Origin: Albidovulum denitrificans
GTDB taxonomy: Bacteria; Pseudomonadota; Alphaproteobacteria; Rhodobacterales; Rhodobacteraceae
DNA: 64,000 bases
Assembly (NCBI RefSeq): GCF_002973535.1
Contig: NZ_PVEP01000005.1
Coordinates: 124,001-188,000 of the forward strand
Direction of reading: 5' to 3'
The notes beneath the pieces were generated by a model that was given only the letters and a program-made list of their open reading frames with translations, was not told the DNA's origin and did not search any database. Below, one piece after another: positions 4,298-25,919 of the stretch. Within the stretch, counting starts at the first letter, position 1; each line of letters starts with the position of its first letter. The position numbers and the translations under genes are program-made.

Positions 4298-4340
4298 CCG
4301 GGCGCCGTGCCGCCGCGCCGCAAATTCTTGGCAAGGCCCC

Positions 4341-4369: not shown

Positions 4370-4379
4370 CCTCACCCAC

Positions 4380-4456: not shown

Positions 4457-4519
4457 TTTTCCATTGTCAGACGGTGCCAGATCCCAAGCCTCCCGCCGAC
4501 CCTTGGTATGCGGCTGCCT

Positions 4520-5173: not shown

Positions 5174-5226
5174 GTCCAACCTTCTGTCTTTGCGCCATTT
5201 TTTACGCAGATACGCGGGGCCTGTCC

Positions 5227-5255
5227 AATATAGGGATTCACCGATTGCAAGTCGA
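5227..5255 (-). promoter_or_regulatory. Putative promoter of the GntR regulator gene
   Basis: On the minus strand TCGACT (5250-5255) and TATATT (5227-5232) are 17 bases apart, about 54 bases upstream of the regulator start codon. The -35 overlaps the end of the -35 of the divergent promoter, so the two transcription units share control DNA. Confidence 0.4.
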
Positions 5256-5274
5256 TACTTTCGCCATGTATACA
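5245..5274 (+). promoter_or_regulatory. Putative promoter of the TRAP-catabolic operon
   Basis: TTGCAA (5245-5250) and TATACA (5269-5274) with an 18-base spacer lie about 55 bases upstream of the dctP-type start codon. The -10 is inside the palindrome at 5266-5282, a classic repressor arrangement. Confidence 0.5.
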
Positions 5275-5282
5275 AAATACAT
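5266..5282. promoter_or_regulatory. Palindromic operator for the GntR regulator
   Basis: ATGTAT (5266-5271) and ATACAT (5277-5282) form a perfect 6-base inverted repeat around a 5-base AT-rich centre. FadR-subfamily regulators usually bind short palindromes of this kind, often with a GTATAC-like core. It is the only clear dyad in the divergent intergenic region. Confidence 0.6.
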
Positions 5283-5329
5283 TGAGCGGAAATGCAATGC
5301 TGCATTCCGACAGGAGAGGAGACCAATCC

Positions 5330-6313
5330 ATGAAACCGCTTCAGAACGGCGTTCTCGCGGGTCTGCTGGCTTGCACCGCAACGCTTGCCGCTGCGCCGGT
5401 TGTGGCCGAAACCTACATCGTGGCCGTGGGCGCCGCCTCCAACAGCCTTCAGGGTCGGAGCGCGGCCAAGTTTGCCGAAGACCTTCAGGCCAAACTCGGC
5501 GATGCCGACACGGTCGAGTTCTATGCCGACGGTCAGCTTGGCGATGAAAAGGAACTGATGCAGAAGCTGCGGCTCGGCACGGTCCAATTCACGCTGATCT
5601 CCTCGATCATGACGAATGTCGCGCCGGAATTCGCGCTCTTCGACATGCCCTTCCTCGTCAAGGATCGCGCGCATCTCAAGGCGATCGACGCCGAGATTGT
5701 CCAGCCTGAGCTTGCCCCCAAGGCCGAGGCGCAGGGCCTCCACGTTCTGTCGACCTGGGAAAATGGCTTCCGCCAGATCACCAACAACACCCGTCCGATC
5801 GACAAGCCCGAGGATCTTGCCGGCCTGAAGATCAGGACGCCGTCGTCGGAATGGCGCGTCGCGATGTTCAAGGAGTGGGGCGCCAACCCCACGCCGATGG
5901 CCTTTTCCGAGGTCTTTGTGGCGTTGCAGACCGGCACGATGGACGGGCAGGAAAACCCGCTGACCAATATCGTGGGCGCGAACTTTCAGGAGGTACAGAA
6001 GTATCTCAGCCTGACGGGCCACGTCTATTCGCCGACCTACCTGACCAGCGGTGCCGCAACCTGGGCCGACCTGCCCGACAATGTGAAGGCCGCCGCGGTG
6101 GAAGTTGCGGCCGGGGTTCAGGACTGGTCGCTCGCCGAGGGCGAGAAGGCGGATAACGAGCTTGTCGACAAGGTCAAGGCCGCGGGCGTCGCGGTCAACA
6201 CCGCCGACAAGGCGGCTTTCATCGCGGCCTCCGCGCCGGTCTACGCCGCTTTCGCCGAACAGGTTCCGGGCGGGGCAGAGCTTGTCGCCAAGGCGCAGGC
6301 GCTGGCCAAGTAG
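5330..6313 (+). CDS. TRAP transporter solute-binding protein (DctP family)
   Basis: A 327-residue periplasmic binding protein for a carboxylate-type substrate. A Sec signal peptide ends near residue 26 (V-V-A before E-T-Y). The family's central G-L-K-I-R-T-P region, with the arginine that normally clamps the ligand carboxylate, is present near residues 165-171, followed by a G-T-M-D-G-Q-E-N-P segment. The ATG at 5330 has AGGAGAGGA ten bases upstream. It is the first gene of an operon continuing through DctQ, DctM, an isomerase and a kinase, so the substrate is probably an acid or polyol degraded by those enzymes. Confidence 0.93.
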   Translation: MKPLQNGVLAGLLACTATLAAAPVVAETYIVAVGAASNSLQGRSAAKFAEDLQAKLGDADTVEFYADGQLGDEKELMQKLRLGTVQFTLISSIMTNVAPEFALFDMPFLVKDRAHLKAIDAEIVQPELAPKAEAQGLHVLSTWENGFRQITNNTRPIDKPEDLAGLKIRTPSSEWRVAMFKEWGANPTPMAFSEVFVALQTGTMDGQENPLTNIVGANFQEVQKYLSLTGHVYSPTYLTSGAATWADLPDNVKAAAVEVAAGVQDWSLAEGEKADNELVDKVKAAGVAVNTADKAAFIAASAPVYAAFAEQVPGGAELVAKAQALAK

Positions 6314-6940: not shown

Positions 6941-8217
6941 TCCTTCTGCTGACCACCATCGCGCTGATTTCACTGATCCTCATCAACGTTCCCATCGCGA
7001 TCGCCATCGGTATCGTATCGGTCGGCGGCTTTTACCTGACCTCCGGCAGCGGCCGTTTCTATGACATGGTGATCGCGCTCTATTCCGGGGCGACCTCTTT
7101 TCCGCTGATTGCGATCCCGCTTTTCATCCTGGCGGGCAACCTGATGAACACCTCGGGCATCTCGGTCCGGCTTATCAACTTCGTCACCGCGCTGATCGGC
7201 TTCGTGCGGGGCGGTCTGGGGATGGTCAATATCGGCGTGTCGATGGTCTTTGCCGAGATTTCGGGGTCGGCCGTCGCCGATGTCGCGGCGACCGGGACGG
7301 TACTGATTCCCGAGATGAAGAAGCGCGGCTATTCCCGCACGCTGGCCGCCGCGATCACCTCATCCTCGGCCTCGCTCGCCATCATCATTCCGCCCTCGAT
7401 CCCGATGATCCTTTACGGCGCGATTGCCGAAACCTCGGTGCTGAAGCTTTTCGTGGCGGGGGTGATACCGGGCGTTCTGGGCGGCGGGCTCTTGATGCTG
7501 GTGACTTATTTTCTGGCGATCCGATACGATCTGCCGCGCGCCGAGGGCTTTGACCTTGGCCATATCTGGAAAAGCTTCAAGGAAGCGTTCTGGGCGCTGA
7601 CCATGCCGGTCATCATCCTTGGCGGCATCTTTTCGGGCATCGTGACCGCGACCGAAGGGGCGGGGCTTGCGGTGCTGGCCGCGCTTGTCATCGGCATTTT
7701 CATCTACCGTGACCTCGACCTGAAGCGTCTGCGCGCAACGATGCTGGACGGGATCAGCCAGACCGGCGTGGTCATGCTTCTGGTCGCGACCTCTGCCGCG
7801 CTGGGGCTGTTCCTGACCCAGGCGCAGGTGCCGCAACAACTGGCGGCGCAGATCACCCATGTCACGACCAACCCGCTGATCGTGCTGGCGCTTCTGAACC
7901 TGCTTCTTCTGGTCCTGGGCATGTTCCTGCATGGTGCGGCGGCGATCATCCTGGTGGTGCCGGTCGTGATGCCGCTGGTCACCGCGGTCGGGATCGACCC
8001 GGTGCATTTCGGGATCATCGTGACGCTTAACCTTGCCATCGGGCAGCAGACGCCCCCGGTCGCCTCGGTCCTGATCACCTCCTGCTCGATCGCCAAGGCG
8101 GGGATCTGGGAGACCTCGCGGACCAACCTGCCGTTCATCGGGGTGCTGGCCTTCATCCTGCTTCTGGTCACCTATGTCCCGTCGGTGTCGCTGGCGCTGA
8201 CCGAGTACATCAAATGA
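6937..8217 (+). CDS. TRAP transporter large permease subunit (DctM family)
   Basis: A 426-residue polytopic protein, the sodium-coupled transport subunit. It shows the repeated DctM pattern: an early N-x-x-N-x-S-G hairpin region, the G-S-x-x-A-D-x-x-A-x-G-x-x-x-I-P-E-M segment, the I-P-P-S-I-P-M-I loop and a matching G-Q-x-T-P-P-V-x-x-x-L loop near the end. Length is normal for the family. The ATG is embedded in the dctQ stop and its own stop overlaps the next start, so the transporter and enzymes form one unit. Confidence 0.94.
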   Translation: MILLLTTIALISLILINVPIAIAIGIVSVGGFYLTSGSGRFYDMVIALYSGATSFPLIAIPLFILAGNLMNTSGISVRLINFVTALIGFVRGGLGMVNIGVSMVFAEISGSAVADVAATGTVLIPEMKKRGYSRTLAAAITSSSASLAIIIPPSIPMILYGAIAETSVLKLFVAGVIPGVLGGGLLMLVTYFLAIRYDLPRAEGFDLGHIWKSFKEAFWALTMPVIILGGIFSGIVTATEGAGLAVLAALVIGIFIYRDLDLKRLRATMLDGISQTGVVMLLVATSAALGLFLTQAQVPQQLAAQITHVTTNPLIVLALLNLLLLVLGMFLHGAAAIILVVPVVMPLVTAVGIDPVHFGIIVTLNLAIGQQTPPVASVLITSCSIAKAGIWETSRTNLPFIGVLAFILLLVTYVPSVSLALTEYIK

Positions 8218-12106: not shown

Positions 12107-13177
12107 CTATGCCTCCCCGCCCTTGCCGCGCCGTCTGTGATGCACCCTGCTCGGCGGGCTGCCGAAGCGGCGGGTGAAGACCTTGGAGAAGTGGGACTTG
12201 GTGTTGAAGCCGCAGGCGGCGGCGATCTCGAACAGGGTCAGGTCGGTGTCGGTGATCAGGCTGCGGGCGTGGTCAAGGCGCAGGTTCTGGTAAAACCGCG
12301 TCGGCGTCACGCCAAGGCAGCGCTGGAACTGGCGTTCGATGTGGCGCATCGTGTAGCCGACCCTTTCGGCCAGTTCCTCCATCGTCAGGGGCGTTTCGAT
12401 ATTGTCGGTCATCAGTCGGACGATCTCGATCAGGCCGGGGTTGCGGGTGTGCAGGACCGAGCCGATCGAGGTGCGCTGGGCGAGGTTGGCGCCCGCATCG
12501 TCGCGCAGCAGGCACATGTCGGCGACGATGGCGGCGAAGGCGTCGCCGTGATCCTTGCGGATGATGGAAATGGCCATGTCGGCCGAAGCCGCGCCGCCGC
12601 CGCAGGTCATGATGCGGCCGTCGATCTCGAACCGGCGTTTTGACGGGGGCAGGTGTTCGAAGCGTTCGGCAAAGCCCGGATGGCATTCCCAATGCAGCGT
12701 GAAGGTACGACCGTCGAGAAGCCCCGCCTGCGCCAGCGCCACCGCGCCGGTGCAAATCCCCCCCAGCGCGCCGCCGGTCCGGTTGTGGCGGTGCAGGAAG
12801 GCCAGCGTGGATTTCGCCGGGTTACCGCCGGACAGATTGCCGGAGCAGGCGAAGATCACGGTGTCCTTGCCGGTACTGGACAGCGCCGCATCGGCCGCGA
12901 TCTCCACGCCCGAGGAACTGCGGACGGGGCGGCCATCCTCGGACACGACGGACCAGCGGTAAAGCGGCTTTTGCGAAAGCTGGTTGGCGATGCGGAAGGG
13001 CTCGATCGCGGCGCTGAAGGCGAGGAGGGTGAAATCCTTCAGAAGCAGGAAGGCATAGCTTTGCGTCTTCACGACCTCGCCCACCGGAAAGAAGGCCGAG
13101 CCAAGCGGGATCAGCGCGCGGGACAGGTCCATGATCGCGTCGTCGCTGTCGGTCGTCGGGGGTGTCTTGTCCGTCAC
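12107..13177 (-). CDS. GlxA-type AraC-family transcriptional regulator
   Basis: About 356 residues: an N-terminal DJ-1/PfpI-like domain (about 40-215) and a C-terminal AraC double helix-turn-helix (about 235-335, ending with the G-F-x-x-x-S-H-F-S-K-x-F-x-R-x-F signature). Relatives control amine, betaine or carnitine-type catabolism in proteobacteria. It lies 64 bases downstream of the G3E GTPase in the same direction, so it may be the last gene of the imide/hydantoin gene set. The start is uncertain: GTG at 13177 has AAGGA upstream; ATGs at 13132 and 13237 are alternatives. Confidence 0.82.
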   Translation of the reverse strand: MTDKTPPTTDSDDAIMDLSRALIPLGSAFFPVGEVVKTQSYAFLLLKDFTLLAFSAAIEPFRIANQLSQKPLYRWSVVSEDGRPVRSSSGVEIAADAALSSTGKDTVIFACSGNLSGGNPAKSTLAFLHRHNRTGGALGGICTGAVALAQAGLLDGRTFTLHWECHPGFAERFEHLPPSKRRFEIDGRIMTCGGGAASADMAISIIRKDHGDAFAAIVADMCLLRDDAGANLAQRTSIGSVLHTRNPGLIEIVRLMTDNIETPLTMEELAERVGYTMRHIERQFQRCLGVTPTRFYQNLRLDHARSLITDTDLTLFEIAAACGFNTKSHFSKVFTRRFGSPPSRVHHRRRGKGGEA

Positions 13178-13198
13178 GGGGGGCCTGTCCTTGTACCA

Positions 13199-13224
13199 CC
13201 GGCCCGCGTGATCCTGCGGGCCGG
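13199..13224 (-). terminator. Hairpin between the G3E GTPase and GlxA-type genes
   Basis: CCGGCCCGC (13199-13207) and GCGGGCCGG (13216-13224) form a perfect 9-base stem with an 8-base loop. There is no T-run, so it may attenuate rather than stop transcription into the regulator. Confidence 0.45.
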
Positions 13225-13241
13225 GTTGGCGGATCATAGCG

Positions 13242-14231
13242 TCACGGATCGTCCCGCGCGATCCCCTCTGCGCGGCCCTCATGGCCCAGCACGAAACGGT
13301 CCCAGGATGCCTGCAAGCGCACCGGGTCGATGCCGCGGCCGATGAGGACGATGAAGTCGCCTTCGCCCTCCTGCGGCTGCTCCCTCTCCGGCAGGATCTC
13401 CGGCGGTTGGACGTGACGGCGGACGGATTGCAGCAGAAGGCGCCCGGCCGGGCTTCGTACCGCGCCCTTGACGCGGACGATGCTGTCGCCCCGCGCGAAG
13501 AGAAGGGCCGAAAGCCAGGCCGACAGCGCCCACCAGCCGCCCGCCGATCCGGCGTCAAGCCGGTGGGCCTGGATCGGGCCGCTGTCCTCCGCCACCGGGC
13601 CAAGATCGAAGGGCAGGGCGTCGGGGTCGGTTTCGACCTTCGTCTCGACGCCGAAATCGGCCCAGCCGAGGCGGGCATCGGGGGCAAGCCCGCGCAGCGT
13701 GGCGGCAAGTCGGGATCGGTTCGGGGCAGGGGCCTCTGCTGCCTTGGTCACGACGATCTCATCCGCGGCCTCTGCCTGCGCGCGGGCGAGGTGTTCGGTC
13801 GCCAACTGCCCCGGCCCCTCTAGCGCGTCGACAAGGACGATGGTCCGGGTCAGGACGATCCGGCGCACCAGCACCGGGTCCTCCATGATCGCGCGGGCGA
13901 TGGCGGCGGGATCGGCGATGCCGCTGGTTTCAAGCACGATGGTGTCGAGCGCCACGGCGCCCGCGTCACAAATCCGGCGCAGCGCGGCCAGCAGGTCGGC
14001 ACGACCGCTACAGCAGGCGCAGCCGCCTGCGAGGACATCCAGCCGTTCGGCCCGGCCCAGCAACAGGTCATCGACCGGCATTTCCGCCGCCTCGTTGACC
14101 AGCACATGAACCCGGCCGAAGCGGCGGGTGAAAAGCTGATGGCGGAGCCAGGTGCTTTTGCCCGCGCCAAGGAAGCCGCCGACGATGACCAGCGGCAGAA
14201 GGCCGTCCTGCCGTCCCGTCGCCTCAGCCAT
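13242..14231 (-). CDS. G3E GTPase (CobW/COG0523 metal-chaperone family)
   Basis: A 329-residue P-loop GTPase with Walker A G-G-F-L-G-A-G-K-S-T at 18-27 and the G-C-A-C-C metal-binding motif at 70-74, typical of COG0523 chaperones that deliver zinc, cobalt or nickel to enzymes. The C-terminal CobW domain is shorter and ends without a His-rich tail. It is transcribed after a zinc-type hydantoinase and an imidase-like enzyme and overlaps the small CxxC gene by eight bases. My inference is that it loads or tunes metal in those hydrolases. Confidence 0.88.
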   Translation of the reverse strand: MAEATGRQDGLLPLVIVGGFLGAGKSTWLRHQLFTRRFGRVHVLVNEAAEMPVDDLLLGRAERLDVLAGGCACCSGRADLLAALRRICDAGAVALDTIVLETSGIADPAAIARAIMEDPVLVRRIVLTRTIVLVDALEGPGQLATEHLARAQAEAADEIVVTKAAEAPAPNRSRLAATLRGLAPDARLGWADFGVETKVETDPDALPFDLGPVAEDSGPIQAHRLDAGSAGGWWALSAWLSALLFARGDSIVRVKGAVRSPAGRLLLQSVRRHVQPPEILPEREQPQEGEGDFIVLIGRGIDPVRLQASWDRFVLGHEGRAEGIARDDP

Positions 14232-14517
14232 GGGTCAGCGCGCGGTCCGACATCGGATCGACCGGCCCGCGCGCCATTCGCGACGCCTCGCGCCACAGTG
14301 CGTCGAGGTCGGGGACCAGCACCCATTCGCCACCCGGCGCGAAAAGTTGCAGCCCCGGCGTCGCCCCGTCATCGCGGGCGCTGAGGCCATAGGGCGCCAG
14401 CAGACGGTTGACCACCGCAAGGCGCGCGAAGCGCAGCCGCAGCCGGTCACCGGCGCTGCTCGCGCCGGCGTCGGTCCAGTGGCCGGGGGCGGCGGGAAAG
14501 CCGCAGGCGTTGCACAT
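14224..14517 (-). CDS. Small CxxC protein of unknown function
   Basis: A 97-residue protein starting M-C-N-A-C-G, which leaves a Cys at the very N-terminus if Met is removed. No domain is recognised. The rest is a leucine/arginine-rich helix region followed by an L-F-x-P-G-G-E-W-V-L-V-P-D-L strand region. It overlaps the G3E GTPase start by eight bases and sits nine bases after the imidase-like gene, so it belongs to that operon. A zinc-binding accessory or metallochaperone partner is possible but unproven. Confidence 0.7.
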   Translation of the reverse strand: MCNACGFPAAPGHWTDAGASSAGDRLRLRFARLAVVNRLLAPYGLSARDDGATPGLQLFAPGGEWVLVPDLDALWREASRMARGPVDPMSDRALTHG

Positions 14518-14526
14518 GGCGCGCCC

Positions 14527-15432
14527 TCAGATCACCTCGGGCCGCTTGCCGCTTTCGAAGGGGAAGCGTTCGCGGAAGTCGTCGGCGATCTCCTCGAAGG
14601 TGGCCCATTCGATGCCGTCATGGCCGTTGATATGCTCGATCAGACGCTCCAGCATCAGCAATACCTGCGGCCGACCGGAGACGTCGGGGTGGATGGTAAA
14701 GGCGAAGACGCCGTAATCCATCTCGCGGTAGACCCAGTCGAACTGGTCGCGCCACATCTCCTCGATGTCGCGCGGGTTCACGAAGCCGTGGCTGTTGGGC
14801 GACTTCTTCATGAACATCATCGGCGGCAGGTCATCGACATACCAGTTGGCAGCGATATCGACGAGGTCGATCTCCTTGCCGTGCTTCAGCGGGTGCATCC
14901 AGTCCTTCGCCTTCTTGGTGTAGTCGATGACGTTCCATTCGTCGCCGACACGCGCATAGAAGGGCTGGAAGTCGCGGTATCCCTGAGAGTGGTCATAGCT
15001 GAAGTTGTACTTCTTCAGCAAAGCAGCCGTCGCGGCGGACATTTCCCACCAGGGCGCGACGTAACCGCGCGGCGCGCGGCCGGTCAGCTTTTCGATCAGC
15101 TCGATCGACTTGACCAGAACGTCCTCTTCCTGCTGCGGCGTCATGGCCACGGGGTTTTCGTGCAGGTAGCCATGGGCGCCGATCTCATGCCCGGCATCCA
15201 CGATCATCTGCATTTCCTTCGGAAAGGTCTCAAGCGAATGACCGGGGATGAAGAAGGATGTCTTCATGTCGTATTTCTTGAACAGCCGCAGCAGGCGCGG
15301 GATGCCGACCTCGGTCGCGAAGATGCCGCGCTGGATGTCCGAGGGGCTGTCGCCGCCGCCGTAGGAACCGATCCAGCCGGCGACGGAGTCGATGTCTGTG
15401 CCGAAGGCGCAGTAGATCTTTTTCTTGGCCAT
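14527..15432 (-). CDS. Polysaccharide-deacetylase-fold amidohydrolase, probably a cyclic imidase
   Basis: A 301-residue NodB-homology enzyme with no signal peptide, hence cytoplasmic. Metal residues are visible: D13/D15 near the N-terminus and the H-x-x-x-H pair H87/H91 in [10 protein letters not shown]. Cytoplasmic members of this type act on small ring amides (PuuE-type allantoinase, cyclic imide hydrolase) rather than on sugars. Its position next to a hydantoinase and an asparaginase-like amidase supports ring opening of imides or related compounds. Substrate is inferred; peptidoglycan or chitin deacetylation is unlikely. Confidence 0.8.
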
Positions 15433-15460: not shown

Positions 15461-16921
15461 TTAGACGCCGCTGGGAATGTTTTGCGGGTCCCGGTGGACG
15501 AACCGGGGGGAGTTGAGGTCCTTCCACACCGATAGCGCGCGGTTCACGGACGGGAAGGCGGGGCGTGGGACGTAGACGCCATGGCCCGCGCGGGGGCGTT
15601 CGTTCTGCCCGTGGCTCCACACCACCTTGCCACGCGACAGCGTGTGGCGCGCCTGGGCCGTGACCTCGATCCCCTCAAAGACGTTGTAATCGAGGATCGA
15701 AAGCTGGTTGGCGGCGCGGATGGTCTTTTTCAGCTTCGGGTCCCAGACCACGATGTCGGCATCCGCACCGGGGACCAAAGCGCCCTTGCGCGGGTAGATG
15801 TTCAGGATGCGGGCGATATTGGTCGAGGTGACGGCGACGAATTCCTCGGGCGTCAGCCGCCCGGTTTCCACGCCGGTGGTCCAGAGAACCGCCAGACGGT
15901 CCTCAAGCCCGCCGGTGCCGTTCGGGATCATCGGGAAGCCTTTCAGACCCATGCGCTTCTGATCGGTCGTGAAGGCGCAGTGATCGGTCGCCACGACCTG
16001 AAGGCTGCCCGCCGTCAGTCCGGCCCAAAGGCTGTCCTGATGCGCCTTGTTACGGAACGGGGGCGACATCACGCGCTGCGCGGCGTGGTCCCAGTCCTTG
16101 TCGAAATACTCGCTTTCATCCAGCGTCAGGTGCTGGACCAAGGGTTCGCCAAAGACACGCATCCCCTTCTGCCGCGCCCGGCGGATCGCCTCATGTGCCT
16201 GCTCGCAGGACACATGGACGACATAAAGCGGCACCCCCGCCGCATCGGCGATCATGATGGCGCGGTTCGTCGCCTCGCCCTCCACCTCGGGCGGGCGGGA
16301 ATGGGCGTGGCCCTCGGGGCCGATCTGGCCCGCCTCCATGAACTTCTTCTGCAATTCGGCGATGATGTCGCCGTTTTCGGCATGGACCAGCGGCAGCGCC
16401 CCAAGTTCAGCGCAGCGGGTGAACGAGGCGTACATCTCGTCATCCTCGACCATAAGCGCGCCCTTGTAGGCCATGAAATGCTTGAAGGAGTTGACGCCCA
16501 TCTTCACGACCTCGGCCATCTCCTGCCAGATCGTCTGGTTCCAGCCGGTGATCGCGACGTGCCAGCCGACGTCGATGCAGATCTTGCCGTCCGCCTTGCG
16601 GTGCCAGTCCTTGACCGCGTTCACCAGCGACCCGTCCGGGCCGGGCAGGACGAAATCGACGATCATCGTCGTCCCGCCGGACGCGGCGGCGGCGGTGCCG
16701 CTTTCGAAGGTCTCGGCGGCGGTGGTCCCCATGAAGGGCATTTCCAGATGGGTGTGGGGGTCGATCCCGCCGGGGATGACATAGGCGCCGCCTGCGTCGA
16801 TCACGGTGTCGCCCTTCAGGTCCGGCCCGACGGCGGCGATCTTTTCGCCCTCGATCAGGATGTCGGCCTCCCACATGCGGTCGGCGGTGATGAGGGTTCC
16901 CCCCTTGATGACGGTGGTCAT
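15461..16921 (-). CDS. Hydantoinase / dihydropyrimidinase
   Basis: A 486-residue zinc amidohydrolase that opens hydantoin or dihydropyrimidine rings. The full metal set is in register with known enzymes: H56 and H58 in D-P-H-T-H, the carboxylated K147 in [10 protein letters not shown]180 in V-H-A-E-N, H236 and D313 in A-T-D-H. The start at 16921 overlaps the amidase stop (ATGA); an upstream in-frame extension to 16963 is unlikely. No N-carbamoylase or beta-ureidopropionase gene is visible nearby, so the ring-opened product must be finished elsewhere or by the neighbouring amidases. Confidence 0.92.
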
Positions 16922-17907
16922 TCTCCGGTCCTCCACGATAGGTCGGCATGGTCGGCGAAACACTCGGCCCGACCCGCCATCAGAAGCAGCGTCAGAAGCA
17001 GCCGCGCCTTGAGAGCGTCGAGATCGCCCGCGGGCAGAAGGCCGCGCCCGATCAGGTCGATCTCGGCCCCGGTCTGGCCGTAGGTGCGGTTCAGGACCCG
17101 GCCACCGCGGGTTCGGCTGGTGAAGACGACGGGGATGTCCCCCGCGGCGCCTTCAAGCGCATCGGCCCAGGCGGCGCTGGCATGGCCACCGCCCGAAAGC
17201 TCGGCCACGATGCCCTCCGCGCCAGAGGCAACGGCGGCAGTAACAAGGTGTGGCGGCTCCCCCAGTCCCGGTTTCAGGATCGGCACATGGGGAACCTCCG
17301 CGCCCTTCGGGACAAAGATCGGTGTCCGGCGCGGGCGGCGGAAGCGCAGCGCGGGGCGCCCCTCGGCCATCCAGCCCAAAGGCGCGGGCGACCAGAAGGC
17401 GCCGACAGAACTCGTGTCGCGCTTCTGCACCCAGTCGGCGGCGTGGATGTCGTCGTCAAAGACCACCAGCGCCCCCTGATCGCGGCAGGCGGGATCGGCG
17501 GCGCAGGCGATGGCGGCGTAGACATTGGCGGGACCGTCGGGGCCGGGGAGCGAGGGGTTGCGCATCGCCCCGGTCACGATGACCGGCGAAGACCCGGTGT
17601 GCAGAAGGTCCAGCAGATAGGCCGTTTCCTCGATCGTGTCGGTGCCTTGGGTAATGACGAAGCCCGCCGCACCTTCGCCCTCCAACTGTTGGATCAGGTC
17701 CGCAAGGCGCATCAGAAGCGGCAGGTCGATCTCCACGCTCGGGACATTGACCAGTGTGCGGGCGCGGATCTCGGCAAGGTCGCGCGCGGCGGGGACGGCG
17801 GCCAGCAGATCCTCGGCCGTCAGGCCCGGCACGACACCCTTGCCGTCGGGGCGCGGCGTGCTGGCGATGGTGCCGCCCAATGCGATGACTTCGACCCGGC
17901 CCGCCAT
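16918..17907 (-). CDS. Asparaginase-family amidohydrolase
   Basis: A 329-residue L-asparaginase/glutaminase fold protein. The catalytic threonines are present: T13 in A-L-G-G-T-I-A-S and T89-D90 in T-Q-G-T-D-T-I-E-E-T-A; K160 follows in the expected place. No signal peptide, so it is cytoplasmic. It sits between the transporter ATPase (one base gap) and the hydantoinase (four-base overlap). In this setting it may hydrolyse half-amides released by the imidase-like enzyme rather than asparagine. Confidence 0.88.
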   Translation of the reverse strand: MAGRVEVIALGGTIASTPRPDGKGVVPGLTAEDLLAAVPAARDLAEIRARTLVNVPSVEIDLPLLMRLADLIQQLEGEGAAGFVITQGTDTIEETAYLLDLLHTGSSPVIVTGAMRNPSLPGPDGPANVYAAIACAADPACRDQGALVVFDDDIHAADWVQKRDTSSVGAFWSPAPLGWMAEGRPALRFRRPRRTPIFVPKGAEVPHVPILKPGLGEPPHLVTAAVASGAEGIVAELSGGGHASAAWADALEGAAGDIPVVFTSRTRGGRVLNRTYGQTGAEIDLIGRGLLPAGDLDALKARLLLTLLLMAGRAECFADHADLSWRTGE

Positions 17908-17908
17908 C

Positions 17909-19027
17909 TCAATCCTCGTAGGGTGTGCCGGTGGAGTTGTTGGCCCCGACAAGGATATGGTTGACCTTCGGCGCCCAGCTTGCATGGACCTTGTCGCCCA
18001 CGGCCTTCGGTGCGGCGTAATAGGCATCATCGTCGAGATAGACGATGAACTCTTCCCGCGTGCCGGTCTCAAGCGCGAGTTTCACGAAGGTCCCCTGGTA
18101 TTCGATGTTGACGACCGTGCCTTCGGTACAGTTGCGGCCATCGCCCTTCGTGTCGGAAATCTGGATGCGATCCCGGCGAACCGAGAAATTGGCGGTGTCG
18201 CCCGGTTTCGCGCCCTCGATCGGGGGCAGGTCATAGAGGTTGCCATCCTTGCTTTCGACGACGGTTCCCTCTGCCCCGGCCGACTGGACCGTGCCGGTCA
18301 GCACGTTCTGACCGCCCATGAAGCGCGCGACATAGGGGCTGTGGGGGCGGTTGTAGATGGTCCGGGGGCTTGCGGCCTGCTCGACGACGCCGTGATCCAT
18401 GACCACCACCTGATCGGCCAGCGCGATCGCCTCGGGCTGGGTATGGGTGACGTGGATGAAGGTGATGCCCAGCTGGTTCTGAAGCCGCTTCAGTTCCACC
18501 CGCATCCTCAGGCGCAGGAATTCGTCCAGCGCCGAAAGCGGTTCGTCCAGAAGCAGCACCTTGGGGTTGGTGATCAGCGCGCGGGCCAGCGCGACGCGCT
18601 GCTGCTGGCCGCCCGAAAGCTCGGACGGGACCCGGTCGGCGAGGTGAAGAAGCTGCACCCGGTCCAGCATCTCGCGCGCCTTGTCGCGCCGCTCGGAGGC
18701 AGCCACGCCGTTGACCCGCAGGCTGAAGGCGACGTTGTCGGTCAGCGACAGATGCGGGAACAGCGCGTAGTTCTGGAACATCAGCGCGGTGCCACGGCTG
18801 CCGGTCCTGACCGTGGTCATATCCTCACCCCCGATGGAGATGGTGCCGGATGTCGGCGTCTCATGCCCCGCGATCATGCGCAAAAGCGTGGTCTTGCCGC
18901 AGCCCGAGGGGCCGATCATGCAGCAATAGGCCCCGCCGTCGATGGTCAGGTCGACGTCGTTGACCGCGCGGACCGCGCCGTAAAGCTTGGTGACGCTGCG
19001 AATGTCGATACGGCTCTGCTCGGTCAT
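17909..19027 (-). CDS. ABC transporter ATP-binding protein (PotA-like)
   Basis: A 372-residue ATPase with Walker A G-P-S-G-C-G-K-T-T near 38-46, the L-S-G-G-Q-Q-Q-R signature, Walker B V-L-L-L-D-E-P and a C-terminal TOBE domain from about 280. It resembles spermidine/putrescine and iron(III) importers, the group used for many small amine or amide substrates. It overlaps the permease start by four bases and leads directly into the amidase genes, so transport and degradation are coupled. Confidence 0.93.
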   Translation of the reverse strand: MTEQSRIDIRSVTKLYGAVRAVNDVDLTIDGGAYCCMIGPSGCGKTTLLRMIAGHETPTSGTISIGGEDMTTVRTGSRGTALMFQNYALFPHLSLTDNVAFSLRVNGVAASERRDKAREMLDRVQLLHLADRVPSELSGGQQQRVALARALITNPKVLLLDEPLSALDEFLRLRMRVELKRLQNQLGITFIHVTHTQPEAIALADQVVVMDHGVVEQAASPRTIYNRPHSPYVARFMGGQNVLTGTVQSAGAEGTVVESKDGNLYDLPPIEGAKPGDTANFSVRRDRIQISDTKGDGRNCTEGTVVNIEYQGTFVKLALETGTREEFIVYLDDDAYYAAPKAVGDKVHASWAPKVNHILVGANNSTGTPYED

Positions 19028-19866
19028 GCGGACTTTCCTTTGGCGCGGGCTCGTCTCTTCTGGACGATGGCGATGGTGATGAACGCGGTCGCGATGACCA
19101 GGAAGCTGACGGCGGAGGTGACGGTCCCGATGGCGTAAAGCGCGGGCGTGGTGACATTCGTCGTCATGTTGGAGATCTCGATCGGCAGCGTGTTCTTCGC
19201 GCCGACCGTCAGCAGGGACCGGGGCATCTCGTCATAGCTAAGCGTGAAGCCGAAGAGCGCGACCGCGATCAGGCCGGGGAAAAGGATCGGCACGGTGACA
19301 TAGGACAGCACCTGCCGGGGCGAGGCACCGGCATCGCGCGCCGCCTCTTCCCACGATCCGTCGAAACGGTTCAGGACGGCAAACATGATGAGAAGGCCAA
19401 AGGGCAGGGTCCAGCTCAGATGCGCGCCAAGGCCCGAAAGCCACCAGGCCAGCCGCAGGCCAAGAAGCTGGAACAACTGGCTGATCCCGAGACCAAGAAG
19501 GATGCCCGGCACCACAAGGCTGACGATGGAGAGGTAAAAGATCGGCCCCGCGCCCCAGAACCGGCGCCGGAAGGCCAGCCCCGCGAAGAGGCACACCACC
19601 GCCGTGATGGCCAGAGACAGCCCGCCAAGGACCAGCGACCGGCGGAAGGCGCCGCCAAGGTCGCCGTAGCGGCTTGAGGTCCAGAGGTCGTGGAACCAAT
19701 GGGTCGAGACCCCGCGCATCGGAAAGGTCAGGCCACCGGTCGGGCCCTGAAAGCTGAGGATGAAGATCATCAGCATCGGGCCGTAGAGGAAGATCACGAA
19801 AAGCGCGAAGAAGGTCGCGAGAAGGTAGAAGGCGGCGCCGCGGCGGTTTGTGGTGCTTTGCGACAT
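19024..19866 (-). CDS. ABC transporter permease (PotC-like)
   Basis: A 280-residue inner-membrane protein with six predicted helices and the E-A-A-x-D-A-G-A-S EAA loop that docks to the ATPase, located near residues 178-190. It pairs with the PotB-like permease encoded just upstream (three bases apart) and the PotA-like ATPase overlapping downstream. Confidence 0.92.
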   Translation of the reverse strand: MSQSTTNRRGAAFYLLATFFALFVIFLYGPMLMIFILSFQGPTGGLTFPMRGVSTHWFHDLWTSSRYGDLGGAFRRSLVLGGLSLAITAVVCLFAGLAFRRRFWGAGPIFYLSIVSLVVPGILLGLGISQLFQLLGLRLAWWLSGLGAHLSWTLPFGLLIMFAVLNRFDGSWEEAARDAGASPRQVLSYVTVPILFPGLIAVALFGFTLSYDEMPRSLLTVGAKNTLPIEISNMTTNVTTPALYAIGTVTSAVSFLVIATAFITIAIVQKRRARAKGKSA

Positions 19867-19869
19867 GAC

Positions 19870-20745
19870 CTACCTCGCCAGTTCCGAGCGGATGTCGACC
19901 ACCCTGAGGATCGCCGTCACCATCAGCAGGACGACGATGATGAGAAGGACCGCCATCGCCGAGGCGACGGGGTAGTAAAGCTGGTCGATGTTGTTCTTCA
20001 TCGCCGAGACGACGGATGCGCTTTGCCCGCCGCTCATCACCCGGACGACGAAGAAATCGCCCATCACCAGCGTCACGACGAAGATCGACCCCAGCGCGAT
20101 CCCGGTCTTGGACAGCGGCACGATGACGCCCCAGAGGATCTGCCATCCGCTTGCGCCCGCGTCCCGCGCGGCCTCGATCAGGTTCGGGTTGATCTTGGCC
20201 ATGCTGTTGAAGATCGGCACGATCATGAAAAGCGTGAAGAGGTGGATATAGGTCAGCACCACCGCGAAATCCGAATAAAGCAGGATGTCGAGCGGCTGGT
20301 CGATGATGCCCGCCTGCATCAGGAGGCTGTTGAAAAGCCCCTCACGCCCCAGAAAGGGAATCCAGCTGACCATGCGGATCACGTTCGATGTCCAGAACGG
20401 GATCGTGCAAAGCAGGAACAGCGCGATCTGCACGCGCAGGTCGCGGACATGGAAGACGAGGAAATAGGAGCAGGTGAACCCGACTACCGTCGTCGCGATC
20501 AGGGTCATCAGCGCGTATTTCAGCGTAGAAAGAAACAGGCTGAGCGTGACGGGGGAGCTTAGGACCTCCTTGTAGTTGGCCCAGGTAAAGGCCGGATAGA
20601 CGGCGATCCCGTCGAATTCCCAGAAGCTCAGAAGCACGACCGTCAGAAGGGGGATGCCCACCATCGTGATCATGAGGAAGGCCAGCGGCGCGACCTGGAG
20701 ATAGGGCGCGAGCGATCCGCCGGATGGAGACGACCTCCCGGACAT
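19870..20745 (-). CDS. ABC transporter permease (PotB-like)
   Basis: A 291-residue permease with six helices and the EAA loop E-A-A-R-D-A-G-A-S near 192-200. It is the first membrane gene after the binding protein, separated by 82 bases that hold a strong hairpin. Together with the PotC-like protein it forms the channel of the importer. Confidence 0.92.
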   Translation of the reverse strand: MSGRSSPSGGSLAPYLQVAPLAFLMITMVGIPLLTVVLLSFWEFDGIAVYPAFTWANYKEVLSSPVTLSLFLSTLKYALMTLIATTVVGFTCSYFLVFHVRDLRVQIALFLLCTIPFWTSNVIRMVSWIPFLGREGLFNSLLMQAGIIDQPLDILLYSDFAVVLTYIHLFTLFMIVPIFNSMAKINPNLIEAARDAGASGWQILWGVIVPLSKTGIALGSIFVVTLVMGDFFVVRVMSGGQSASVVSAMKNNIDQLYYPVASAMAVLLIIVVLLMVTAILRVVDIRSELAR

Positions 20746-20827: not shown

Positions 20828-22132
20828 TCAGGAGGCGATGAACTCGTTCCAGCGCTGGATCATGTAGCGATCTTCATCCATCACCGCGTTCCAGCAGGCG
20901 ATGTTGCCCATGCGCTGTTCAAAGCTGCCGCCGTCGCGGCTGGCACCGGCCTTGTCCATGATGTTGCCGTAGGGGTCCATGATGTCCTCGGTCGCGGGCT
21001 TGCCTTCATACCAGTAGCCGCGCTCATTCTCGCTGAGATCGGCCATGGCGGTCGTGGGGACAGAGGAGTAATAGCCCTGCCGCGCGATGAAGGCGCCCTG
21101 CCAGCCGGTCAGGTACCAGTTGAGGTATTCGTAGGCGGCCTCAAGCTTGATGCCTTCGAGATGGCGCATCAGGCCCATGCCAAGACCCCAGCCGCGATAG
21201 CCCTGCGACAGGCCCTGATAGACGCAGTTGATGCCGCGCGATTTCACGGCGGTCACGGCGGGCGACCACATCGACTGGATCACCACCTCACCGGCGGCCA
21301 TCAGGTTGACGCTTTCGTCGAAGGTGGACCAGAAGGCGCGGAACTGGCCGTCCTTCTTCAGCGCGATGAGGGCGTCGATCGTCTTGTCGATCTCTTCCTT
21401 CGTCATGTTGCCCTTGTCGCCATAGGTCAGGTCGCCGCGCGCCTCAAGCGCCATGGCGGCGTCCATGATGCCGATGGAGGGGATGTTGACCAGCGCCGTC
21501 TTGCCCTTGAATTCCGGGTTGAACAGCTCTGCCCAGCTGGTGATCTCGCGCCCCGTCAGGTCGGGGCGGATGCCCAGCGTGTCGGCGTTGTAGATCGTCG
21601 GCATGACCGTGGCGAGGTCGGTGGCCCCGGTCGCGAAGGCCGTCGACTCCGCGCTGTCGGTATACAGCACCTCGAAGGGCAGGGTTCCCTGACGGCTCAG
21701 GTCGGCGCCGTCGAAATTCTTGCCGTCGCGCATCAGCGGCGTCATCTCGCCCCAAAGCTTGATCTTGCTGATGTCCACCGGCTGAAGGTTGCCCGCGCGA
21801 TAGACCTTCTGAAGGCCCCAGAACTCGAAATCCGCGATGTCCACGGTTTCGGGCTGGTTCACCACCTTGGCCATCAGTTGCGTCGTCTCGGCGGTCTGCG
21901 GGACGATCTTGAAGCCAAGATCGGCACTGGCCTTTTCGCAGATGTCGGCGATCACCGAATAGGACGGGCCGACCTGGGTCAGCGTCACGTCCTTGATGTT
22001 CTGCGCCCAGATCATCGGCGCCCCGAGGATGCCGGACCCGACGCCCGCGCCCGCCACGGCGGCGGAGCCCTGCAAGAGTTGCCGACGTGTCACACCGGCG
22101 CGTGTCTTGGTCGGAGAAGTTGGTCGTGTCAT
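20828..22132 (-). CDS. Extracellular solute-binding protein with Tat signal
   Basis: A 434-residue periplasmic binding protein of the PotD/family-1-like type. The N-terminus carries a twin-arginine signal (T-R-R-Q-L-L-Q near residues 15-21, then a hydrophobic A/G-rich core), so it is exported folded. ATG at 22132 has GGGAGA upstream; the frame is open further to 22180. It feeds the PotBCA-like transporter. A clear paralogue without any signal peptide is encoded across the divergent intergenic region at 23423-24601; the last 120 residues align well, including the A-R-Q-G-Y-Y and W-Y-x-G-K-P-A-x-E-D segments. Confidence 0.92.
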   Translation of the reverse strand: MTRPTSPTKTRAGVTRRQLLQGSAAVAGAGVGSGILGAPMIWAQNIKDVTLTQVGPSYSVIADICEKASADLGFKIVPQTAETTQLMAKVVNQPETVDIADFEFWGLQKVYRAGNLQPVDISKIKLWGEMTPLMRDGKNFDGADLSRQGTLPFEVLYTDSAESTAFATGATDLATVMPTIYNADTLGIRPDLTGREITSWAELFNPEFKGKTALVNIPSIGIMDAAMALEARGDLTYGDKGNMTKEEIDKTIDALIALKKDGQFRAFWSTFDESVNLMAAGEVVIQSMWSPAVTAVKSRGINCVYQGLSQGYRGWGLGMGLMRHLEGIKLEAAYEYLNWYLTGWQGAFIARQGYYSSVPTTAMADLSENERGYWYEGKPATEDIMDPYGNIMDKAGASRDGGSFEQRMGNIACWNAVMDEDRYMIQRWNEFIAS

Positions 22133-22211
22133 TTCCGTCTCCCTGTTGATCGTCGCAAACGTAGCTGTTGGTGCCGTCACGCCTTCTTTTCGGGGCGTTT
22201 TCGGATGGAGT

Positions 22212-22247
22212 CTTCGACTCGAAGCCTAAGTCAAAGTGTTCTTCGAA
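22212..22247. promoter_or_regulatory. Possible operator in the divergent SBP/regulator region
   Basis: CTTCGA and TCGAAG (22212-22217 and 22219-22224) form a 6-base dyad around one base, and a second CTTCGAA core lies at 22241-22247. The 182-base region is AT-rich compared with the genes around it and separates the transporter operon from the double-winged-helix regulator. These dyads are the best visible candidates for its binding sites. Confidence 0.35.
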
Positions 22248-22314
22248 TGCAATAAGCAATTCTGACTTGTTGAAAGGCCTGAATGGTGAAAAAAATAGCG
22301 ATTAGAGAAGTATC

Positions 22315-23412
22315 ATGTGGCCCATTGTATTCGATGGACAATTTCTGATGGCAGAATCGCGTCTCTCCGCCGACAGCCGCAACGGGGCGGCCGACCACCC
22401 GGCCGCGCCGCGCGATGCGGATATGCCGGGCGCCGGCGAAGGGGCCGGGGCTGCCTTTCTTTATGATTCCGTGCGCAACCTTCTTGAGCAGAAGATCGCG
22501 GTGGGGGAGGTGCCGCCCGGCGCGCTTCTGAAAGAGGCCGCCGTCGCCACCCATCTGGGCGTCAGCCGCGCGCCGGTGCGCCGGGCGATGGCGATGCTGG
22601 CGGAACAGGGGCTGATCCGGCCTGCCGACGGGCAGGGCTATATCGTCGGCGCGGCGCGGGCGCGTCGCCTCAGCCCGCGTGAGTTGCACGACATCCTCGC
22701 GCCCTCGACCGAGGACATGAACCGCAGCGCGACGTGGGAGAGGATCTTTGCCCGCGTCTCGGATGAGATCACGGCGCTGCTGCCCTTCGGCACCTACCGT
22801 ATCCAGGAGGCGGAGCTGGGCGATTACCACGACGTCAGCCGCACCGTCGCGCGCGAGGTGCTGTGGCGGCTGATGGATGTGCGGCTGATCGAGAAGGACC
22901 GCAAGTCGCACTGGATCGTCGGCCAGATGACCGCCCGCGACGTGCGCGATTCCTTCGAGATGCGCCGACTGTTGGAGCCGCAGGCGCTGGCCAATGTCGC
23001 GCCGTCGCTGGACCTTGCCTGGCTTGAGGGGCTGGCCGGGCGGATCGACGCGGCCATCGCCTCCTTTCCCGCTTGCGGCGCGGGTGAGATTGATGCCATC
23101 GAACATGACATGTTCGAGGCGATGTATCAGGGGGTGCGGAATGCGCGGATGCTTGGCTCGATCCGGCGTAACCAGATCGCGCTGAACGTGCCGCGCCTTT
23201 TCCGGCAGCATTTCCCGATCCGCGACGACCTTCCGGCGCTGACGCTTTACAGCCAGATCGTCCGGCTTCTCTCCACCGGCTCGATCAACGCGGCGCAGGT
23301 GCTGTTGCGGACCCATCTGGAGCGCGCCGAACCCCTCGTCCTGGCGCGGCTGAGGGTGCTGGCGATGCTGCCCGCGCCCGCGACCGTACCTTATATCGTC
23401 GCCGTTCACTGA
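22315..23412 (+). CDS. GntR-type regulator with two winged-helix domains and an FCD-like domain
   Basis: A 365-residue regulator. A standard GntR winged helix spans about 48-112 (G-V-S-R-A-P-V-R-R-A recognition helix). A second winged-helix-like segment spans about 141-203 (V-S-R-T-V-A-R-E-V-L-W-R-L then a wing ending H-W-I-V-G). The C-terminus (about 210-340) resembles the FCD helical ligand domain, with E263-H264-D265 and H334 as possible metal or ligand residues. Ordinary FadR-type proteins have one winged helix and about 230 residues. It is divergent from the transporter operon and ten bases upstream of the cytosolic binding-protein homologue. Confidence 0.85.
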   Translation: MWPIVFDGQFLMAESRLSADSRNGAADHPAAPRDADMPGAGEGAGAAFLYDSVRNLLEQKIAVGEVPPGALLKEAAVATHLGVSRAPVRRAMAMLAEQGLIRPADGQGYIVGAARARRLSPRELHDILAPSTEDMNRSATWERIFARVSDEITALLPFGTYRIQEAELGDYHDVSRTVAREVLWRLMDVRLIEKDRKSHWIVGQMTARDVRDSFEMRRLLEPQALANVAPSLDLAWLEGLAGRIDAAIASFPACGAGEIDAIEHDMFEAMYQGVRNARMLGSIRRNQIALNVPRLFRQHFPIRDDLPALTLYSQIVRLLSTGSINAAQVLLRTHLERAEPLVLARLRVLAMLPAPATVPYIVAVH

Positions 23413-23422
23413 AAGGCCGCGC

Positions 23423-24601
23423 ATGACAGAGCTTACGCTTCGCGTGATCGGAACCAGCGCCACGCTGACCGAGGACCTGCGCCGCCGCGCCGCCGCCGAT
23501 CTGCCCTTCAGGATCGCTTTCGAGGTGCTGGACGGTGTGGCCTGCCTGCGCCGGGGTGTCATGAACCCCGAAAGCTATGACGTCTACGATCAATGGTTCT
23601 ATTCGCTCGACGTGCTGTGGACCGCCGGGTCGATCCAGCCCATCGACACGGCCCGCATCGACCGTTGGACCCAGGTCCGTGTCGCCGGGCAGCTTCCCGG
23701 TGTCACCGCCGGGCGCAGCCATGGCGCGGAGCCTGCCGCGCAGATGTTCGTCCAGCCTGACGGCACCCTTGGCCCAAAGCCGGTCTTCGGCAGCGCGCCG
23801 CAGGTCGGGATGCTGCCGACCAGCTACAACGTCGACGGCTTTGCCTACGGGCGGGAATTGCTGTCCGACACCGCGCCGGGTGAGGTCGAAAGCTGGGCCT
23901 GGCTTCTGGACGACCGCTGGCACGGGCGCTGCACGCTCGGCCTCGACCCGGCGGGGACGGCGGTGGAACTTGCGCTGGCGGCCCGTGCGGCCGGACTGGT
24001 CGATCTGAACGATCCCGGCGACCTGACGATCGAGGAGATTGACGCGCTGTTCGACATCCTCATGTCGCGCAAGCGGCGCGGCCATTTCACCCGGTTCTGG
24101 GGGACGAGCGAGGATTCCGTCGGCCTGATGGCGGCGCCGAACTGTGTGATCGGCTCGCTCTGGTCGCCCGCGTTCTACACGCTGCGGGGCATGGGCAAGG
24201 ACGTGATCTATGCCGCGCCGAAAGAAGGCTATCGCGGCTGGCACAGCGGACTATGCCTGTCGGCGCGCGCCGATGATGAGGTGCGCGATGCGGCCTATGC
24301 CTACATGAACTGGTGGCTTGGCGGCGAACCCGGCGCGATCATGGCGCGGCAGGGCTATTACATCTCGGTCGTGGAGCCGTTGAAGGACACGCTGAGCGAG
24401 GCGGAGTGGCAGTATTGGTATGACGGCAAACCGGCCAGCGAGGACCTTCTGGGCGCCTCCGGCACCGTGGCCGTCCGGCGCGGGGAATGCCGCGAGGGCG
24501 GGACCTATCAGGACCGCGTGTCCAAGGTCGCGGTCTGGAGTACCATCATGCCGGAACACAACTACCTGTCCCGGCGCTGGCGCGAATTGCTTGAGATGTG
24601 A
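23423..24601 (+). CDS. Solute-binding-protein homologue without signal peptide
   Basis: A 392-residue homologue of the periplasmic binding protein at 20828-22132, colinear over its whole length. It starts M-T-E-L-T-L-R-V-I-G, which aligns with the mature region of the exported protein, so the signal peptide is absent and the protein should stay in the cytoplasm. The reading frame is intact, and the ATG sits ten bases after the regulator stop, arguing against decay. It may bind the imported compound inside the cell, as a sensor for the regulator or as a carrier for the hydrolases. This is inference. Confidence 0.85.
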   Translation: MTELTLRVIGTSATLTEDLRRRAAADLPFRIAFEVLDGVACLRRGVMNPESYDVYDQWFYSLDVLWTAGSIQPIDTARIDRWTQVRVAGQLPGVTAGRSHGAEPAAQMFVQPDGTLGPKPVFGSAPQVGMLPTSYNVDGFAYGRELLSDTAPGEVESWAWLLDDRWHGRCTLGLDPAGTAVELALAARAAGLVDLNDPGDLTIEEIDALFDILMSRKRRGHFTRFWGTSEDSVGLMAAPNCVIGSLWSPAFYTLRGMGKDVIYAAPKEGYRGWHSGLCLSARADDEVRDAAYAYMNWWLGGEPGAIMARQGYYISVVEPLKDTLSEAEWQYWYDGKPASEDLLGASGTVAVRRGECREGGTYQDRVSKVAVWSTIMPEHNYLSRRWRELLEM

Positions 24602-24860: not shown

Positions 24861-25919
24861 TCAGAAGATGAGGTTGAAGAGGAACCCGACGGCAAGGATG
24901 CCGCTGGCCACCACGCCGATGAAGACGGCAATCAGGCGCAGGGTCAGGACCTGCCGCAGGATGATCATTTCGGGCAAGCTCAGCGCGATCACGCTCATCA
25001 TGAAGGCCAGCACCGTGCCAAGCGCCGCGGCCTTGCCCAGAAGCGCCTCGACGATGGGGATGACGCCCGCGGCGTTGGTGTACATCGGAACGCCCATCAG
25101 CACGGCGGCGGGAACCGACCACCAGGCATCCGCGCCCATGATGCGGACCATCAGATCCTGCGGCACATAGCCATGGATCAGCGCGCCCGTGCCGATGCCG
25201 AGGATGATCCAGAGCCAGACCTTGGCGAAGATCTCGCGCACCGCCGCGATGCCAAGGCGGTAGCGGTCGGTCATGGTCGGACGCTCCCCCTCCGCCAGCT
25301 CTTGGGTGTTGGCGCCGGAATGGATGTCGCGCACCCAGTCCTGCAACCAGCCCTCAAGCCGCAGCTTGCCGATGACGAACCCGGCCACCACGGCGATGCC
25401 GAGGCCTAAGACCAGATAGGTCACGGCCACCTTCCAGCCGACCAGCCCGAAGAGCAGCACCAGCGCCACCTCGTTTACCATCGGCGCCGCGATCAGGAAG
25501 GAGAAGGTGACCCCCAGCGGCACACCGGCCGAGACGAAGCCGATGAACAAAGGCACCGCCGAGCAGGAGCAGAAGGGCGTCAGCACGCCAAGCCCGGCGG
25601 CAAGGACGTTGCCGACCCCCTCGCGCTTGCCCGACAGGACCGCGCGGGTCTTCTCGGGCGAGAAGAAGCTGCGCACCACGCCCATCGCGAAGACGATCAG
25701 CGTCAGAAGCATCATCACCTTCGGCACGTCGTAGAGGAAGAAGGCGATCGCCTCGCCGGTATGGCTGTGACGGTCCACCGGCATCAGGCCGACCAGCCAT
25801 TCCGACAGCGGGATCAACTGGCGATAGACCAGCCACCAGAGCGCCGCGAAGGCAATCACGCCCAGATGCCAGGTCCAGTCGGGCCGCGCGGGGCGGGGGG
25901 AGGTGTGGGCGACGCTCAT
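24861..25919 (-). CDS. arsP: ArsP/DUF318-family permease
   Basis: A 352-residue membrane protein with about eight to ten helices and the family motif T-P-F-C-S-C-S-A-V-P-L near residues 115-125, plus the second-half G-V-P-M-Y-T-N-A-A-G-V repeat. Members export methylarsenite and other organoarsenicals or act as uncharacterised permeases. The start overlaps the arsR stop by four bases. The symbol rests on family and context; substrate was not inferable. Confidence 0.85.
   Translation of the reverse strand: MSVAHTSPRPARPDWTWHLGVIAFAALWWLVYRQLIPLSEWLVGLMPVDRHSHTGEAIAFFLYDVPKVMMLLTLIVFAMGVVRSFFSPEKTRAVLSGKREGVGNVLAAGLGVLTPFCSCSAVPLFIGFVSAGVPLGVTFSFLIAAPMVNEVALVLLFGLVGWKVAVTYLVLGLGIAVVAGFVIGKLRLEGWLQDWVRDIHSGANTQELAEGERPTMTDRYRLGIAAVREIFAKVWLWIILGIGTGALIHGYVPQDLMVRIMGADAWWSVPAAVLMGVPMYTNAAGVIPIVEALLGKAAALGTVLAFMMSVIALSLPEMIILRQVLTLRLIAVFIGVVASGILAVGFLFNLIF

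Follow-up and report, generated by a model that had tools for sequence, protein, structure and literature searches.

A leaderless clade of solute-binding proteins partnered with a tandem winged-helix GntR/FCD regulator and sister to a kinase-linked exported clade

In a 64,000-nucleotide stretch of the Albidovulum denitrificans genome (contig NZ_PVEP01000005.1, positions 124,001 to 188,000; hereafter the window, numbered from its first letter), the forward-strand gene at 23423-24601 encodes a 392-residue solute-binding protein (SBP) of the SBP_bac_8 family that lacks an export leader, denoted as TWIN. The gene is preceded on the same strand by that of a tandem winged-helix GntR/FCD regulator at 22315-23412, denoted as REG, and the pair diverges from an ATP-binding cassette (ABC) transporter operon which begins with an exported SBP (20828-22132, reverse strand), denoted as the transporter SBP. 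We found that TWIN belongs to a leaderless, sensory-looking clade that is partnered with the tandem GntR/FCD regulator and is sister to an exported, kinase-linked clade; the finding is real and goes beyond what had first been claimed for this locus. In literature searches at the level of titles and abstracts, chiefly of open-access papers, no description of a cytosolic SBP paired with a GntR regulator was found.

A leaderless protein and its exported sister clade

The frame of TWIN is unbroken, and its first start codon, the ATG at 23423, is placed at the mature region. The open frame runs 23 codons further upstream, where none of ATG, GTG, or TTG occurs. TWIN matched PF13416 (SBP_bac_8) with 45.2 bits at a cut-off of 27, and its AlphaFold2 (AF2) model showed a pLDDT of 92.7 and a pTM of 0.91. 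When the model was compared with PDB structures using Foldseek, the top folds among the best 50 of 1437 matches were the solute-binding proteins YdcS, PotD, and PotF, with E values from 1.4e-18 to 3.3e-17 and TM-scores of 0.69-0.72 by query for 6nlp, 7xjm, and 7oyv. While TWIN shares the fold of PotD, PotF, and YdcS, it is 15-17% identical to these entries and has no leader. With the mature part of the transporter SBP, TWIN aligned nearly end-to-end (132 of 394 identical, 34%, E 2e-78). A preliminary description had presented TWIN as a full-length leaderless homologue of that exported protein, ten bases from a regulator gene divergent from the transporter operon, and both points were borne out, with REG ending at 23412 and TWIN starting at 23423. 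The extracellular SBPs of ABC transporters carry a signal peptide of the Sec, lipoprotein, or twin-arginine translocation (Tat) type, none of which was seen in TWIN, and the neighbouring transporter already has its own exported SBP.

TWIN relatives were found at 44 loci in the genome contig collection. The arrangement of a transporter divergent from REG-TWIN is kept at nine loci from other genomes (L045-L053) and on one plasmid (L142), where the TWIN proteins are 57-71% identical to that of the window and have no leader. Given these ten further loci, the arrangement in the window is more than chance. The preliminary description had named a leader in close relatives as a finding that would speak for a decayed duplicate, and none was present in the 11 window-type loci. 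When 21 other genomes of the genus of the window were searched, none held a TWIN-like protein; 20 gave weak partial or SBP-type matches and one gave no match. Further leaderless relatives, 35-50% identical, occur in Rhodobacterales, Rhizobiaceae, Burkholderiaceae, Halomonadaceae, Pantoea, Grimontia, and others, and several carry the annotation "extracellular".

For the tree, 98 TWIN-family sequences were collected, which comprised the window protein, 42 of the 44 contig-collection loci (L087 and L088 were dropped, the former being a partial frame followed by a kinase), 14 from genomes of the family, one from a further search, 31 of 36 from other genomes (excluding G816, G896, G919, G823, and G1116), and nine of 143 plasmid records. 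The upstream frames of all 98 were read for a leader by a script that scored an RR motif and the Kyte-Doolittle mean hydrophobicity, rather than by a signal-peptide predictor; exported sequences showed RR or KR followed by a hydrophobic stretch. Five labels were assigned manually prior to tree building: L064, L178, and L180 as exported, and L098 and L161 as leaderless, since the close relatives of the latter two start at a short ATG. The tree of 122 sequences was inferred from the region after the leader by an IQ-TREE quick search, with SH-aLRT as its branch support. Leaderless proteins (54), exported proteins (44), and transporter SBPs (24) each fell on one side of a branch, with SH-aLRT values of 95, 100, and 95, respectively. 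The leaderless clade was sister to the exported clade, and the transporter SBP of the window lay in a different clade from TWIN. As such, the idea that TWIN is a twin of the adjacent transporter protein does not hold, its sister being the exported, histidine-kinase-linked family, and a decayed or local duplication of the adjacent SBP was rejected on the same clade structure. Considering that the other two groups are both exported, the leaderless clade is most simply accounted for by a single leader loss. About 15 leaderless proteins retain an APAVH-like stretch just ahead of the core, resembling APFVHA of the exported ones; the raw pattern count of 18 contains chance matches such as L046 and L092.

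In the exported clade, a kinase-family match lay directly downstream on the same strand in all 44 loci, with gaps of -26 to 140. In 38 of these, the kinase had at least two hydrophobic segments, approximately 275 residues apart, and six had one only, among them L185, a short piece. Pfam confirmed HisKA, HATPase, and HAMP on the one kinase scanned, that of L060, whose extracytoplasmic part gave no match in the PDB. Within the stretches fetched around the 44 loci, no match to either permease (PERM1 or PERM2) was present. Because a kinase follows directly in every locus and permease matches are missing from the fetched stretches, the exported family resembles a periplasmic sensor more than a component of transport. 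This layout, a Tat-type exported SBP with a histidine kinase directly after it, is spread over Gammaproteobacteria, Planctomycetota, Acidobacteriota, and other groups, as seen in the exported sequences within L060-L086 and L160-L190.

When leaderless, exported, and ten window-type transporter SBP sequences were compared, 55 positions were conserved at 85% across all of them, and the binding apparatus of TWIN thus seems to be kept. Eight positions separate the leaderless from the exported clade, and the leaderless proteins agree with the window-type SBPs at six of these. Two of the eight, D56 and F59, are no more than five residues from the positions that align with PotF 87-88; the latter were varied in PotF/D PDB entries, as judged by entry titles.

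Linkage of TWIN with the regulator REG

REG matched PF00392 (GntR) with 64.1 bits and PF07729 (FCD) with 32.8 bits, both above the cut-off, which places it in the GntR/FCD family. The GntR winged helix spans residues 49-111 and the FCD domain residues 212-336. Residues 137-347, comprising a second winged helix and the FCD domain, aligned with the GntR/FCD protein of PDB 2hs5, and the AF2 model of REG placed the second winged helix at about 138-202, with a pTM of 0.66 and thus an uncertain domain placement. Against TM0439 (3sxy_A), the TM-score was 0.82 when normalised by target length. REG may alternatively start at the ATG at 22348, which aligns with an ATG of the relative L046.

For 52 of the 54 leaderless sequences, a regulator of this tandem family was located: 38 have it in the flank first fetched, nine have it in an extended flank, and for five (L055-L057, L059, and L073) it came from a genome search. 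REG of L059 sits on another contig than TWIN, and the REG and TWIN contigs of L055-L057 agree in size. Across 394 genomes of the family, 15 held TWIN with scores of at least 305 bits, followed by a match of 254 bits, a range where the fetched loci were of the SBP type. The same 15 genomes also ranked highest for REG (429.7-269.5 bits), a co-occurrence that is partly circular and to that extent counts against our reading, since the REG model was built from TWIN-linked REGs, including those of ten of the 15 genomes; G148, G205, G337, G349, and G359 are the ones free of this circularity. Ten more genomes of the family held weaker REG relatives at 260-220 bits. At 1e-50, REG was found in none of the seven exported-clade genomes tested. 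The co-occurrence of regulator and leaderless protein across genomes, which the preliminary description had proposed as a check, was observed.

We further compared how the proteins diverge in the 33 loci that hold TWIN, REG, CobW (a GTPase), PDAC (a polysaccharide-deacetylase-family hydrolase), and F12 (a small MCxxCG...HW protein). The rank partial correlations with TWIN distances were 0.62 for REG, 0.01 for CobW, 0.07 for PDAC, and 0.21 for F12. The REG value was reached in 0 of 2000 permutations, ranged from 0.58 to 0.65 when one locus was left out at a time, and became 0.71 and 0.64 after thinning to 18 and 11 loci. To lessen the effect of linkage, we also chose the 22 loci in which REG lies more than 1.5 kb off or was fetched separately; in most of these loci, TWIN and the CobW gene are no more than 200 bp apart. 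The correlations were 0.67 for REG, -0.12 for CobW, -0.06 for PDAC, and 0.35 for F12, and after thinning to 11 loci they were 0.74, -0.04, 0.00, and 0.28, respectively, with 0 of 2000 permutations as high for REG in either case. The correlated divergence of TWIN and REG is support for a partnership and not proof of it, since similar rates may add to the value and the sequences share ancestry.

FCD regulators are described as binding metal through [D/N]-x3-H, H, H (PMC4746285, PMC7674646), and FadR as having no metal site (PMC7674646). At the corresponding places REG of the window has E263, F267, no histidine at the second place (Y-S), and H334, so that even a relaxed [D/N/E]-x3-H, H, H is absent. 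Considering that FadR has no metal site either, this loss does not exclude REG from the GntR/FCD family. The three histidines were intact in all ten REG relatives not linked to TWIN (nine from TWIN-less genomes plus the second G239 copy, each with the complete region; L224 was dropped as partial). Among the 52 TWIN-linked REGs, the triad was lost in 26 by script or 27 by eye, the difference being L053 with an out-of-register histidine. On the TWIN tree the losses are confined to two clades, of 11 and 16 rows, including that of the window. As they amount to two clades, a Fisher value is not independent evidence, and we rejected the triad loss as a strong statistic. The loss fits a handover of sensing to TWIN in these clades, in two events only.

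Proposed role and alternatives

Taken together, we regard it as fairly probable that TWIN is a cytosolic ligand receptor for REG in a cluster for uptake and catabolism of cyclic amides or hydantoins, and that loaded TWIN acts on REG. This reading is supported by the leaderless frame, the SBP fold, the clade structure, the kinase linkage of the sister clade, and the co-occurrence and correlated divergence with REG. In the window, the ABC importer would bring the compound in and TWIN would close on it; loaded TWIN would then contact REG and change its grip on the divergent promoter region. Judging from the hydrolases in the cluster, the ligand is probably a cyclic amide, imide, or hydantoin-like compound. 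On a longer time scale, an ancestral Tat-exported SBP may have given rise to two sister lineages, one of which stayed exported as the input of a membrane histidine kinase, while the other would have shed its leader and come to provide the input for a tandem-winged-helix GntR/FCD transcription factor in the cytosol. The chances seem evenly balanced that TWIN is, in this broader sense, a freestanding, dedicated co-receptor that arose by leader loss next to a kinase-linked sensory lineage, that the receptor family was thereby switched between a membrane kinase and a soluble transcription factor, be it a repressor or an activator, and that the regulator gave up its own metal or ligand site in two clades.

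In TorT-TorS and LuxP-LuxQ, a periplasmic SBP works with a sensor histidine kinase. CuaD is likewise presented as an SBP with a signalling role (PMC10384115). In all three, as proposed here, an SBP serves as the ligand receptor of a signalling protein, and the sister clade shows that gene layout; TWIN, in contrast, is leaderless, has no histidine kinase gene adjoining it, and has a soluble GntR/FCD factor as its proposed partner. SgrR-type regulators fuse a winged helix to an SBP-like domain. The likeness to them would be a solute-binding fold serving a transcription factor in the cytosol, whereas TWIN and REG are separate frames, with a stop and ten bases between them, and REG is a tandem winged helix with FCD. 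REG shares the winged helix and FCD domain of TM0439, DgoR, and CitO, and differs from them in its extra N-terminal winged helix, in the loss of the metal triad in the clade of the window, and in its linkage to an SBP. While SBPs are usually interpreted as importer components, a widespread clade of them appears to act as a sensor inside the cell. Should this hold, the ligand specificity of a soluble regulator can come from a binding protein separate from it, the two sister clades, exported and leaderless, offer a direct test of a receptor moving between signalling partners and compartments, and TWIN-REG could serve as a modular two-protein biosensor.

Several points weigh against the receptor reading, besides the circularity and the similar rates noted above. 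The cytosolic location, the ligand, the contact of TWIN with REG, the direction of its effect, and the binding of REG to an operator are all inferred. With respect to the location, L059 and L073 fall just below the hydrophobicity limit, and 4 of 40 plasmid matches listed (H15, H27, H31, and H40) bear the product name "signal peptide prediction"; the two such proteins read, L146 and L147, have no hydrophobic stretch, and L146 has RR. REG was not found for L054, a metagenome-assembled genome, or for L162 on a short contig, and genus-mates of the latter (L161, L165, and L168) do have REG. Of the 54 loci, 29 have REG and 23 have CobW no more than 200 bp from TWIN, with both that close in four, so that TWIN often stands among catabolic genes. 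The orientation of REG and TWIN varies as well, being convergent in some of the close loci, and elsewhere the two are kilobases apart or in separately fetched stretches. We therefore rejected REG adjacency as a universal rule, and the co-transcription with the regulator suggested in the preliminary description does not apply in general.

This catabolic setting is what would be expected if TWIN acted in the cytosol as a carrier or buffer for the substrate, or as an accessory subunit, and passed the imported compound on to either the hydrolases or the CobW/F12/deacetylase module. In several loci an amidase or asparaginase gene is next downstream of TWIN, and F12 was present in 13 of 16 TWIN genomes tested, which also weakens the case for REG as the sole constant neighbour; in the PxpABC group, a distance of 9-12 kb separates F12 from TWIN in six genomes, and in G239 the two are on different contigs. 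However, F12 was not found at 1e-5 in G395 (150 of 168 candidates scored), G437, or G508, all of which keep TWIN and REG, and the sister clade is linked to kinases. The divergence of TWIN does not track CobW or the deacetylase once REG is allowed for, for which reason delivery is less likely than sensing. The preliminary description had left sensing and delivery side by side; the former fits the co-occurrence and correlated divergence with REG, and we consider a carrier role unlikely.

It is more doubtful still that REG senses by itself, as FCD regulators with a bound ligand do, and that TWIN only modulates by sequestering the ligand. About half of the TWIN-linked REGs (25 or 26 of 52) keep the triad and could sense unaided, the losses being confined to two clades; in those two, where REG of the window has F267 and no second histidine, TWIN was nonetheless kept. 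Solute-binding folds can also be enzymes, as in MqnA and Thi5, and TWIN sits in catabolic clusters. That it is an enzyme of the cyclic-amide pathway is, however, at odds with the 55 positions conserved over leaderless, kinase-linked, and window-type transporter proteins and with the solute-binding proteins at the top of the best 50 of 1437 fold matches, and we give it slightly less credence than self-sensing by REG. Although the leader is missing and one remnant exists, a functionless, decaying duplicate of the transporter binding protein is hardly credible in view of 54 distinct open frames in one clade apart from the transporter proteins, 33 invariant columns in 45 rows with the start Met among them, and the same layout in 11 loci. 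The remnant is L088 of Paracoccus benzoatiresistens (2294-2443), 47 residues matching residues 36-82 of a leaderless TWIN with 70% identity, and its 8,170-base contig gave no REG or transporter match. Pseudogenes throughout, the other outcome named in the preliminary description as favouring decay, were thus not seen, and L088 counts on the opposite side in that the TWIN gene can decay.

Catabolic operon and candidate operator

The transporter SBP (20828-22132) carries a Tat-type leader with an RR n-region and a hydrophobic stretch. It is followed on the reverse strand by a PotB-like permease (19870-20745), a PotC-like permease (19024-19866), and a PotA-like ATPase (17909-19027). In L049 of Paracoccus mutanolyticus (3644-5362), both permease genes match piecewise, and SBP, REG, and TWIN match whole. 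The divergent operon extends past the transporter genes, still on the reverse strand, with an asparaginase-family amidohydrolase (16918-17907, start inferred, searched as 16918-17964), a dihydropyrimidinase/D-hydantoinase (15461-16921, start inferred, searched as 15461-16924; TIGR02033 575.6 bits at a cut-off of 393.25), PDAC (14527-15432, PF01522), the 97-residue F12 (14224-14517), and the CobW-family GTPase (13242-14231, PF02492 and PF07683). PDAC, a 94-113-residue MCxxCG...HW protein, and CobW form a trio that recurs in the window (13242-15432) and in relatives. No Pfam family was found for F12 of L056, the only member scanned, the window copy not being among those scanned; the small protein of the trio may work with CobW in metal handling. 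In the clusters of the further leaderless relatives, the partners are CobW, F12, the deacetylase, an amidase or asparaginase, short-chain dehydrogenases/reductases, PotABC-type ABC genes, and PxpABC or HyuAB. In the plasmid cluster L146, REG-TWIN is accompanied by genes for a racemase-family protein, a Zn-dependent hydrolase, and HyuA/HyuB, a gene set that recalls hydantoin utilisation.

In the divergent intergenic region, we propose ATGCAATAAGCA at 22247-22258 (forward strand) as a candidate operator. The window holds one such site where 0.04 are expected, and ATGCAATRNRCA is common to the intergenic regions of all 11 window-type loci. Among 147 sequences scanned, the motif occurred in these 11 and in three others (L184, L199, and L217); as it was derived from the 11 loci themselves, its independent support is its rarity elsewhere and L217 only. 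The L217 site (7589-7600) precedes a match to a TWIN-less REG relative by about 120 bp.

Around these genes, a DJ-1/PfpI plus AraC-type regulator gene lies just past CobW on the same strand (12107-13264), and an ArsP-type permease gene is convergent to TWIN (24861-25871).

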